Below are positions 56,949 through 62,915 of a DNA stretch of 64,000 nt, piece after piece. The notes under the pieces were generated by a model, which was not told where the DNA came from, searched no databases, and saw nothing but the letters and a program-made list of their open reading frames with translations. Origin of the DNA: Palleronia sp. THAF1 (GTDB lineage Bacteria; Pseudomonadota; Alphaproteobacteria; Rhodobacterales; Rhodobacteraceae); contig NZ_CP045420.1 of assembly GCF_009363795.1 (NCBI RefSeq), positions 539,001 through 603,000 of the forward strand, read 5' to 3'. The position numbers and the translations under genes were made by a program. Each line of letters begins with the position of its first letter. Within the stretch, counting starts at the first letter, position 1.

Positions 56949-57830
56949 ATGTTGCGTTCTGGTGTTATCGCCAAGAAGGTCGGCATGACGCGGATCTTCC
57001 AGGACGACGGCCGGCAAGTGCCCGTCACCGTCCTTCAACTGGACAAGCTTCAGGTCGTGGCAACGCGCACCGCTGACGAGCACGGTTATACCGCCGTTCA
57101 GCTCGGCGCGGGCAATGCCAAGGCGAAGAATGTCTCGAAAGCCATGCGCGGCCACTTCGCCGTTGCCAAGGTCGAACCGAAGCGCAAGATCGCCGAGTTC
57201 CGGGTTCATCCCGAGAACCTGATCGCTGTCGGTGAAGAGATCACTGCGAACCACTACTTCGCGGGTCAATTCGTTGACGTGGCTGGTACGTCCATCGGTA
57301 AGGGCTTCCAGGGTGCCATGAAGCGGCACAACTTCGGCGGCCTGCGTGCGACGCACGGTGTCTCGATCAGCCACCGTTCGCACGGCTCCACCGGCCAGTG
57401 TCAGGACCCCGGCAAGGTGTTCAAGGGCAAGAAGATGGCCGGTCACATGGGTGCTGCCCGCGTGACCACGCAGAACCTGCAGGTCGTCAAGACCGACGCC
57501 GACCGTGGCCTGATCATGGTCAAGGGCGCCGTTCCCGGCTCCAAAGGTGGCTGGGTCACGATCAAGGACGCGGTGAAGAAGCCGATGCCCGATGGCGTGA
57601 TCTACCCCGCCGCGCTGAAGTCCGCTGCCGAGGAAGCCGAGCGTATGGCTGCCGAAGCTGCCGAAGCTGCCGAGAAGGAGCGTCTGGAGGCGGAAGCCGC
57701 AGAGGCCGAGCGTCAGGCTGCCGAGCAGGCCGAAGCGCTGAAGGAAGCCGAGGCTGAAATCTCCGAGGAATCCGCTGAGGCCGATAATTCGGACAGTGAT
57801 CCCCGATCGACCGAGGAGGGTGACCAATGA
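56949..57830 (+). CDS. rplC: 50S ribosomal protein L3 with long acidic C-terminal extension
   Basis: The product has 293 residues. The L3 core (1-224) is standard: [20 protein letters not shown], the [20 protein letters not shown] loop reaching the peptidyl-transferase centre, and [20 protein letters not shown] around Gln150, the residue N5-methylated by PrmB in E. coli L3. Residues 225-293 are a tail of Ala/Glu/Lys-rich helix ([20 protein letters not shown]) ending acidic and Ser-rich. Most bacterial L3 proteins are about 205-240 residues. The gene overlaps rplD by four bases. Confidence 0.97.
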
Positions 57831-58740: not shown

Positions 58741-58768
58741 GCTTCGTCTCAGGCTGAGAACGATAAAG

Positions 58769-58796
58769 AACTCCGCTCGAAAGAGCGGAGTTTTTT
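58769..58796 (+). terminator. Rho-independent terminator inside the S10 cluster, after rplW
   Basis: AACTCCGCTC (58769-58778) pairs with GAGCGGAGTT (58783-58792) around a GAAA tetraloop, followed by TTTT. It is a near-ideal terminator, 28 bases after the rplW stop, and splits what is usually a single operon. Confidence 0.88.
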
Positions 58797-59102
58797 CGTT
58801 CACAGGGAGCCGTGTCGCCTGCGCTTTGGTCCCGATCCGCGCTGGGTTTTGTAATCTGAAAGGGATTGACCACCGTTAGAACCGGCCACTTCTGGCACGT
58901 TCTAGCATACCGTGCTTGACCCTCACTCCGAGCCCTCCTAGAAGCCCCCATCGGCCCAGCCCCGGATTCGTCCGGGGCTTGGCTTTTGGTCGCTAGGGGT
59001 ATCCCTGACGGCATCGCTACTGGGACCTTCGGGGCCCTTCACCAAACCGCGGTCCAGTGCCCATCCGGGGCAGGGCCGCCCACAAAACGGAAGACAGAAA
59101 GC
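58797..59102 (+). other. 306-base spacer before rplB with UUCG hairpin
   Basis: No protein gene is supported (two open frames lack ribosome sites and motifs). A 9-bp stem AGCCCCGGA/TCCGGGGCT (58959-58980) is capped by a TTCG tetraloop and followed by TGGCTTTTGG, a second terminator-like element or leader. Promoter-like sequence is weak (TTGACC at 58865-58870 without a good -10). The downstream unit rplB onward must start in this spacer or receive read-through. Confidence 0.55.
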
Positions 59103-61322: not shown

Positions 61323-61736
61323 ATGCTTCAGCCGAAGCGCACGAAATTCCGCAAGATGTTCAAGGGCCGTATCAGCGGCGAAGCGAAGGGCGGGTCTGAC
61401 CTGAACTTCGGATCGTTCGGTCTGAAAGCCGTCGAGCCCGAGCGCATCACAGCGCGTCAGATCGAAGCTGCCCGCCGGGCCATGACGCGCCAGATGAAGC
61501 GTCAGGGTCGCGTGTGGATCCGCATCTTCCCCGACGTGCCCGTCACCGCCAAGCCCATCGAAGTGCGTATGGGTAAAGGCAAGGGCTCGGTCGACCGCTG
61601 GACCGCCAAGGTCAAGCCCGGCCGCGTGATGTTCGAACTGGACGGTGTGCCGGAAGACATCGCCCGCGAGGCCCTGCGCCTTGCCGCGATGAAGCTACCG
61701 ATCAAAACGCGCGTCGTCGCGCGCGAAGACTGGTAG
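61323..61736 (+). CDS. rplP: 50S ribosomal protein L16
   Basis: The 137-residue protein starts [20 protein letters not shown]. It holds the loop [15 protein letters not shown] with Arg82, equivalent to E. coli L16 Arg81, which is beta-hydroxylated by the ribosomal oxygenase RoxA (YcfD). L16 positions tRNA in the A/P sites. AAGGAGG precedes the ATG. It is the last gene before an inserted oxygenase gene. Confidence 0.98.
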
Positions 61737-61807
61737 AACCAGTCTCGCGCGTAGTGCGGCATAGCATGTTGCGCAGCAAGATGCGGGCCGACACCCGGTA
61801 GAAATTG

Positions 61808-61837
61808 AATAGGGCAGGGGGAAACCTCTGCCCTATT
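61808..61837 (+). terminator. Hairpin between rplP and the oxygenase gene
   Basis: AATAGGGCAG (61808-61817) pairs with CTGCCCTATT (61828-61837) around a ten-base loop, followed by CTTATTCTC. The T content is modest, so it may be a partial terminator 71 bases after rplP. Confidence 0.55.
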
Positions 61838-61875
61838 CTTATTCTCAAAACCCAACCGATTTCCGGACCTCTTCC

Positions 61876-62490
61876 ATGCCCCTCACCAACCTCTTCGCTT
61901 CCCCCCTCTACCGCGCCACCCTGTCGGACCATGGCGCCCTCGACATTTCCGAGTTGGAAGCGACCGCCATCGCGATCGCCGAGGATGACGAGGCCGGGCA
62001 GGAGTGGTGCGAAGAACAGGGCTATCCCGGCTACACTTCTTACGCCTCGCTGACCGACCTGCCGTGGCGCGCGCCGATCTTCGCCGATCTGGTGAAAGTG
62101 CTCGACGCCCACGTCGCCGCTTTCGCCGAAGACCTGCATCTGGATCTGGGAGAGGGGAAGCTGGTGCTGGAGGATATCTGGATCAATATCCTGCCCGAGG
62201 GTGGCAGCCACTCTGGCCACCTGCATCCCCATTCGGTGATCTCGGGCACAACCTATGTCGCCATGCCCGAAGGCACCTCCGCCATCCGTTTTGAGGACCC
62301 CCGCCACCCCATGATGATGGCCCACCCCCCGCGCAAAAAGGACGCGCCCGAAGCGCTGAAGCCCTTCGTCTACGTGCGACCAGAGGTCGGTGACGTCCTG
62401 CTGTGGGAGAGTTTCATCCGCCACGAAGTCCCGCTGAACATGAGCGAGGAAGAGCGGATTTCGGTGAGCTTCAATTATAAGTGGGTGTAA
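61876..62490 (+). CDS. 2-oxoglutarate/Fe(II) oxygenase-like protein (TIGR02466 type) inserted between rplP and rpmC
   Basis: The 204-residue soluble protein has a double-stranded beta-helix oxygenase signature: WINILPEGGSHSGHLHPHS (102-120) with HLH (115-117) as likely iron ligands, SGTTYVAMPEG, then GDVLLWESFIRHEVPLN with His183, and ERISVSFNYKW, where Arg194 would bind 2-oxoglutarate. This matches the TIGR02466 family pattern from memory. The usual Asp of the HxD triad is His here. It is not part of the standard S10 operon and sits directly after rplP. Its substrate is unknown; a ribosomal protein is a reasonable guess. A hairpin precedes it and a branched structure follows. Confidence 0.85.
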   Translation: MPLTNLFASPLYRATLSDHGALDISELEATAIAIAEDDEAGQEWCEEQGYPGYTSYASLTDLPWRAPIFADLVKVLDAHVAAFAEDLHLDLGEGKLVLEDIWINILPEGGSHSGHLHPHSVISGTTYVAMPEGTSAIRFEDPRHPMMMAHPPRKKDAPEALKPFVYVRPEVGDVLLWESFIRHEVPLNMSEEERISVSFNYKWV

Positions 62491-62551
62491 GGCCCGGTTC
62501 GCACGTTAGTGCGGCAAACGCTCCTGTGGAGCGTTTGAGGGCCGAACGGGC
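62491..62551. repeat. Branched inverted-repeat element
   Basis: An outer stem (GCCCGGTTCG, 62492-62501, with CGAACGGGC, 62543-62551, one bulged G) encloses two hairpins: CGCAC-GTTA-GTGCG (about 62500-62513) and CAAACGCTCC-TGT-GGAGCGTTTG (62515-62537, 10 bp perfect). The region between the oxygenase stop and rpmC (62491-62699) holds no gene. The element could be a dispersed repeat or a structured RNA; no T-run follows. Confidence 0.55.
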
Positions 62552-62699: not shown

Positions 62700-62915
62700 A
62701 TGGCGCTTGAAGCGACCGATCTGCGGGGCAAGACCCCGGACGAGCTGCGCGATCAGCTTGCCCAGCTGAAGAAAGAGCAGTTCAACCTGCGTTTCCAGGC
62801 TGCGACGAACCAGATGGAAAACACCTCGCGTATGCGCATCGTCCGTCGTGACGTCGCCCGCGTGAAGACGATCCTGAACGAAAAGGCGCGTGACGCCGCC
62901 AAGACGGAGGCCTGA
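62700..62915 (+). CDS. rpmC: 50S ribosomal protein L29
   Basis: The 71-residue helical-hairpin protein has [20 protein letters not shown] and [17 protein letters not shown], characteristic of L29, at the exit tunnel. It resumes the S10 operon order after the oxygenase insertion, four bases before rpsQ. Confidence 0.97.

Follow-up and report, generated by a model that had tools for sequence, protein, structure and literature searches.

Why does a complete oxygenase gene stand between rplP and rpmC in Palleronia sp. THAF1, and does this place in the S10 ribosomal-protein cluster say anything about the substrate of the enzyme? In Escherichia coli, ribosomal protein L16 is hydroxylated at Arg81 by the JmjC oxygenase RoxA (YcfD), and a sequence-only reading of the window (the whole stretch of 64,000 nucleotides analysed here) had proposed the inserted gene as a candidate ribosomal oxygenase of another type. 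The local facts behind this proposal were recovered. The open reading frame at 61876-62490 is intact and encodes 204 amino acids, the segment of L16 with Arg82 is present in the rplP of the window, and the gene order, rpsC-rplP-[oxygenase gene]-rpmC-rpsQ-rplN-rplX, is normal save for the extra gene. The rplP-rpmC gap amounts to 963 bp, rplP ending at 61736 and rpmC starting at 62700. The features of the locus are as follows.

61323..61736, + strand: rplP (uL16), 5' neighbour, Arg82 intact (ORF reading)
61807..61838, + strand: intrinsic-terminator-like hairpin of 14 pairs with a T-rich tail, between rplP and the oxygenase gene (sequence fold)
61876..62490, + strand: TIGR02466 / 2OG-FeII_Oxy_5 gene, ATG start, complete, 204 aa (ORF, profile matches, predicted model)
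62218..62226, + strand: codons of His115-x-His117, proposed first two metal ligands, HxH (invariant in alignment A1; putative ligand role)
62422..62424, + strand: His183 codon, proposed third metal ligand (invariant in A1; putative role)
62455..62457, + strand: Arg194 codon, proposed anchor of the 2-oxoglutarate (2OG) carboxylate (invariant in A1; putative role)
62515..62537, no strand assigned: perfect inverted repeat with 10-bp arms, between the oxygenase gene and rpmC (read from the sequence; paired in the spacer fold)
62700..62915, + strand: rpmC (uL29), 3' neighbour (ORF reading)

The inverted repeat at 62515-62537 lies in a strongly folding spacer of 209 nt and could be a second terminator or an inversion site.

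The protein belongs to a type already known as a family, TIGR02466, which is uncharacterised. The TIGR02466 profile matched with 266.7 bits against a cut-off of 62.5, aligning residues 5-204 with positions 2-201 of 201, and PF13759 (2OG-FeII_Oxy_5) with 116.8 bits against a gathering cut-off of 27. PF13640, which we take to be the P4H family model, stayed under its cut-off of 27 (13.6 bits, E 0.14), and PF08007 (JmjC_2) was absent from the profile matches of the protein up to E 1, in agreement with the view that the inserted protein is not JmjC-type. The phage family PHROG 81 matched at 2.3e-32 over residues 2-201; the protein of cyanophage S-CAM3 differs in that it shares 32% identity and adjoins psbA/psbD.

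The HxH motif in place of HxD, which had been regarded as an oddity of this protein, turned out to be the normal motif of its family. Alignment A1 comprises 20 orthologues, 18 from Rhodobacteraceae and two from other families, with a mean column identity of 77%. HxH is present in all 20 rows, and the invariant columns include H112, H115, H117, H119, H183, R194 and the block GYTSYASL (52-59). Outside Rhodobacteraceae, HxH was found in 84 of 84 TIGR02466 loci (82 distinct, as L134/L196 and L136/L198 are duplicate pairs). The pattern for the distal His...Arg was matched in 40 of the 84, and inspection of the other 44 tails by eye showed a His and an Arg retained in this region; nothing was readable by the motif patterns in L028, L253, L254, L255, L257 and the phage stretch L258. 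HxH is also shared by the more distant relatives L025-L027, L029, L030 and L256. Since L027, L029, L030 and L256 are without the third His (H119), H115 and H117 are the likelier ligands. As judged from the alignments, HxH is the hallmark of TIGR02466, and with it the family departs from the textbook metal triad of 2OG oxygenases, HxD/E...H (PMC4295552, excerpt), which the window protein does not have. This absence does not exclude activity, because two histidines suffice in AspH, which has no carboxylate ligand (PMC10947486, excerpt). One orthologue, L022 (G035:C329), has an internal TAG; its genome is fragmented and 85% complete, and either decay or sequencing error may be involved.

An AlphaFold2 model of the protein (mean pLDDT 87.7, pTM 0.85) is predicted to contain the double-stranded beta-helix of the 2OG/Fe(II) superfamily, with Z about 15 to PHD2 and P4H. 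The nearest structures are two solved homologues within TIGR02466, 3bvc (Roseovarius nubinhibens Ism_01780) and 2rg4 (Oceanicola granulosus), both recorded as uncharacterized, which align at Z about 28 and 67% identity in the structural alignment; they share the full-length match, HxH and the distal His/Arg region, and no essential difference from the window protein was seen. In both, a small avidin-type beta-sheet motif with less ligand room has been matched (PMC3532365, excerpt). Outside the family, the best matches are PHD2/EGLN1 (Z up to 15.2), together with the Pseudomonas putida prolyl hydroxylase PPHD (4j25: Z 15.0, rmsd 3.2, 163 aligned; 4iw3: Z 14.5) and the epimerase SnoN (Z 14.8); PHD2 entries occupy most rows of the fold search, and other oxygenase groups may match as well. 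The Foldseek list is similar to the Z-ranked one. Compared with PPHD and animal PHD2, the fold is shared over window residues 7-204, whereas identity is 10-18% and their canonical HxD is replaced by HxH. RoxA/YcfD is placed in the same broad 2OG oxygenase superfamily, but the window protein is without a JmjC_2 match, has 204 aa and HxH, and is devoid of the dimerisation and winged-helix domains of YcfD (described in an excerpt of PMC4295552), the model having no helical domain after the beta-helix. Family and predicted fold make an Fe(II)/2OG-type hydroxylase likely, in line with the original assignment as a 2OG/Fe(II)-type oxygenase, metal and 2OG use being presumed. They do not give the substrate, as small-molecule enzymes, namely SnoN and OkaE (both VIA) and HygX (Foldseek), appear among the structural rows and share the fold.

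The gene is intact and strongly conserved, and in nearly all Rhodobacteraceae carriers sampled it occupies a single slot, which offers a clear place for a functional test. Three samples were compared, which overlap with each other: the window itself occurs as both L001 and L172, and the contigs of L006 and L035 are equal in length. Among the 60 relatives of the first sample, all 22 strong orthologues (L001-L022) lie in the rplP-rpmC gap as far as could be seen, 16 with both flanks and six with one. The second consisted of named records, restricted to the best 80 of 591 confirmed stretches and hence to the closest ones; 77 of the 80 are in the gap (69 with both flanks, eight with one), the exceptions being L053 and L109, which lie at the ends of contigs without a visible S10 gene, and L082, with none within 5 kb. 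In the phylum-wide sample, the gene is carried by 21 of the 27 same-family genomes shown, and 20 of the 21 have it in the gap: 12 with both flanks, five with one and three after wider stretches had been fetched, these last with rplP-rpmC gaps of 5.5-7.2 kb. The remaining carrier, G524, shows no S10 gene within about 9.6 kb. A wider sample of the family contained the gene in 87 of 149 genomes. Across 85 loci with both flanks, the oxygenase gene is the only recurrent gene of the gap; four other large clusters are, by eye, alternative frames over it, and the rest occur in five loci or fewer. A location at unrelated loci in close relatives, which had been named as evidence against a ribosomal role, was thus not encountered within Rhodobacteraceae, with the exceptions of L082 and G524, whereas it is what the other alphaproteobacterial orders sampled display.

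The slot coincides with a break in the cluster. Gap sizes, measured between match ends, are 5-72 bp in eight genomes that belong to the class but to other families. Of the 12 Rhodobacteraceae non-carriers in which rplP was found (G032 and G034 gave no rplP match and are outside the 12), 10 have gaps of 40-308 bp. The other two non-carriers hold other DNA in the slot: by eye, a methyltransferase-like ORF in G005 (locus L114), with a gap of 1,211 bp, and a transposase-like ORF in G023 (locus L116), where rpmC was not reached. A hairpin scan covering 150 nt 3' of the rplP stop, with its own scoring and a threshold score of 16, revealed a terminator-like hairpin in 107 of 108 carrier loci (106 distinct rplP sequences), versus 0.6% of composition shuffles (three per locus). 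In the window, this hairpin (61807-61838) separates the oxygenase gene from rplP. The same scan reached 16 in nine of the 12 non-carriers (not in G014, G021 and G027), a count that stands without a shuffle control, and found none in the eight genomes of other families, whose spacers measure at most 48 nt. The hairpin accompanies the widened gap rather than the oxygenase gene alone, and since hairpins are also present in nine of 12 non-carriers, the split of the cluster need not be due to the oxygenase gene. Such a break after rplP, with its hairpin and a gap that can reach 7 kb, bears on the assumption of S10 operon continuity in this group.

Orientation was considered next to position. Among 124 loci, 116 have S10 genes in view, and the oxygenase gene is sense to the operon in 73 and antisense in 43. 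A quick tree built from the concatenated ribosomal proteins of 121 loci, among them 109 carriers, requires at least 21 orientation changes, and the gene's own quick tree 18, counts in which some flips may be tree error, as several printed supports of flipped pairs are low; 200 label shuffles per tree never gave fewer than 26. Orientation is partly inherited, yet it has flipped many times, and co-transcription with rplP does not hold the gene in its slot. Presence of the gene changes at least seven times on the ribosomal-protein tree.

The relation with RoxA and L16 was examined directly. In the window's own genome, the search for a RoxA homologue proposed along with the original reading gave no JmjC_2 (RoxA-type) match that passed the cut-off, the one candidate having 13.2 bits and E 0.12. 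On a broader scale, JmjC_2, a profile broader than RoxA, matched in seven of 149 family genomes at E 0.001 or better, four of them over the cut-off; three of these four carry the oxygenase gene and one (G649) is without it. In the order of G039, JmjC_2 matches were found in 34 of 80 genomes. Of these, 32 passed the cut-off and 20 had E 1e-15 or better, this strongest class comprising 16 of 50 carriers versus four of 30 non-carriers. RoxA-type JmjC genes are rare in Rhodobacteraceae and do not alternate with the oxygenase gene. A replacement of RoxA, sought as mutual exclusion, was rejected, as no exclusion is visible in the 149 family genomes and the 80 of G039's order. The target arginine of L16 is present in all 128 rplP genes, 108 from carriers and 20 for comparison, and because it is found in every one of them it tells nothing on the substrate; coevolution of L16 with the oxygenase was likewise set aside as uninformative (128/128). 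MGSGKG instead of MGKGKG occurs in four rplP genes, those of G039, G042, G047 and G049, all of other families, among which G039 and G047 carry the oxygenase gene at other loci.

Outside Rhodobacteraceae, orthologues at E 1e-30 or better were recovered in 50 of 80 genomes of G039's order and in nine of 80 of G047's order, and among 14 named control genomes TIGR02466 matched in Caulobacter vibrioides and Synechococcus elongatus. Neighbours in other orders are mostly unrelated to translation, including HlyIII and MAPEG proteins (the latter by Pfam) and, by eye, glyoxalase II, aldehyde dehydrogenase, aminotransferase and pyrophosphatase. Some are translation genes. In Sphingomonas parapaucimobilis (L205, 4429-7162), pth, the TIGR02466 gene and ychF lie on one strand, with a 4-nt overlap between the gene and pth and a small hypothetical gene before ychF; this arrangement is an independent place in which a link with translation can be tested. 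Four of the eight carrier genomes of the f13 group (G047, G094, G098 and G118) have pth and/or ychF near the gene, with a 361-aa ORF between pth and the TIGR02466 gene in G118. In a fifth of the eight, G103, proS overlaps the gene by 4 nt, and in G490 arfB starts 9 nt 3' of it.

These pth-ychF, proS and arfB neighbours favour a role in translation. A partner test on 82 loci yielded 20 tight same-strand partner clusters, the pth-ychF arrangement being counted once; genes were called by a crude GC-by-codon-position rule, and several of the clusters consist of short ORFs that may not be genes. The 82 loci do not include two duplicates, four loci whose identity is below 45% and L255, where no match was found. 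Three of the 20 clusters are translation genes, pth and arfB over the NCBIfam cut-off and proS at 431.3 bits against 437; a small-domain methyltransferase, under every NCBIfam cut-off shown, was left out of this count. The enrichment of translation partners among the 20 clusters did not reach significance; with base rates assumed to be 5-6%, P was 0.08-0.12, in a test devised after seeing the data.

The adjacency which had been taken as a hint at L16 or another ribosomal substrate does not carry that weight, given the hairpin in 107 of 108 loci, the antisense copies in 43 of 116 and the mostly unrelated loci of other orders; as a proof of function, it was ruled out by the terminator, orientation and other-order tests. 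A conserved place in the ribosomal-protein cluster of many Rhodobacteraceae does not show ribosome modification, and the observations speak for a gene that lodges independently where the cluster is naturally broken.

The explanation which we consider probable, with room for error, is an Fe(II)/2OG-type hydroxylase, probably with a protein as its substrate, whose gene is lodged at the break of the S10 operon and transcribed independently. The enzyme, a TIGR02466 / 2OG-FeII_Oxy_5 oxygenase for which a prolyl-hydroxylase-like double-stranded beta-helix is predicted, would hold Fe(II) by His115, His117 and His183 (HxH...H for HxD/E...H), would anchor 2-oxoglutarate by Arg194, and may use O2 to hydroxylate its substrate on a side chain, a protein or peptide being the most likely substrate. 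Its gene would form a transcription unit of its own. We infer that the gene reached the rplP/rpmC boundary, where the putative post-rplP terminator splits the cluster, early in the history of Rhodobacteraceae, and it appears to have stayed in the slot, inverting repeatedly, while other genes came and went around it; the presence changes, at least seven, agree with losses or reacquisition no less than with a single early settlement. A translation substrate is possible and stays a fair hypothesis, by analogy, because EF-Tu is hydroxylated by PPHD, a member of the structural group closest to this protein (PMC4543633, excerpt); genomic position is no demonstration of it.

Among the alternatives, a metabolic oxygenase acting on small molecules, for which the S10 slot would merely be a safe place, is conceivable and rather unlikely. 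The varied neighbours in other orders, including the MAPEG protein and, by eye, aldehyde dehydrogenase and glyoxalase II, are consistent with it, as is the occurrence of the same fold in small-molecule enzymes, but the loci examined show no metabolic partner that returns from one order to another, and the nearest structural rows outside the family are mostly protein hydroxylases. Between the two, a protein substrate is somewhat more likely than a small molecule.

The original proposal, a non-JmjC ribosomal oxygenase acting on Arg82 of L16, on another ribosomal protein or on a translation factor, for example EF-Tu, with its location kept for that purpose, is in our judgement unlikely. It draws on the conserved slot, on the RoxA-type search of the window's own genome, on the known activities of OGFOD1 on uS12 and PPHD on EF-Tu (both in an excerpt of PMC4543633), and on the pth-ychF, proS (G103) and arfB (G490) neighbours, the first of them in Sphingomonas-like genomes. 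Against it stand the hairpin that follows rplP in almost every carrier, the antisense loci, an L16 arginine common to all genes compared, JmjC_2 genes that are few in the family (4/149) and mostly in carriers, strong JmjC_2 matches that are more frequent among carriers in G039's order, and the non-significant 3/20 of the partner test. Its boldest form is doubtful: TIGR02466 would be a new class of non-JmjC hydroxylases of the translation apparatus, with a three-histidine iron centre and a ribosomal protein or translation factor as substrate, holding a dedicated, inversion-prone S10 slot in Rhodobacteraceae and elsewhere recruited independently beside pth-ychF, proS and arfB. Mobile cargo, i.e. 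a phage- or plasmid-borne passenger inserted by chance, is highly improbable: distant cyanophage relatives (PHROG 81 and S-CAM3), TIGR02466 in S-CREM1 (PMC9964418, excerpt) and two plasmid copies speak for it, but the conserved position, one slot in nearly all Rhodobacteraceae carriers, together with the 77% mean column identity, makes it unlikely, and the only phage and plasmid records matched were four, all S-CAM3 (32% identity), and two, respectively.

For the gene at the S10 break, the open-licence literature offered, among the matches listed, no paper on the function of the gene or on an insertion between rplP and rpmC, and the excerpts of PMC9964418, PMC10598087, PMC10436341, PMC3532365 and PMC4508852 give no function beyond 2OG oxygenase. 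Two crystal structures of the family were released in 2007-2008, and no substrate assignment was found in the literature searched.

Two further observations concern the S10 cluster of the window. The rplC (L3) ORF at 56949-57830 encodes 293 aa and has a long C-terminal tail, acidic and rich in alanine and glutamate; this L3 is longer than the usual one. A second wide gap of the cluster lies at 58741-59102, from rplW to the likely start of rplB (the ATG of MALKSYKP, read from the ORF).
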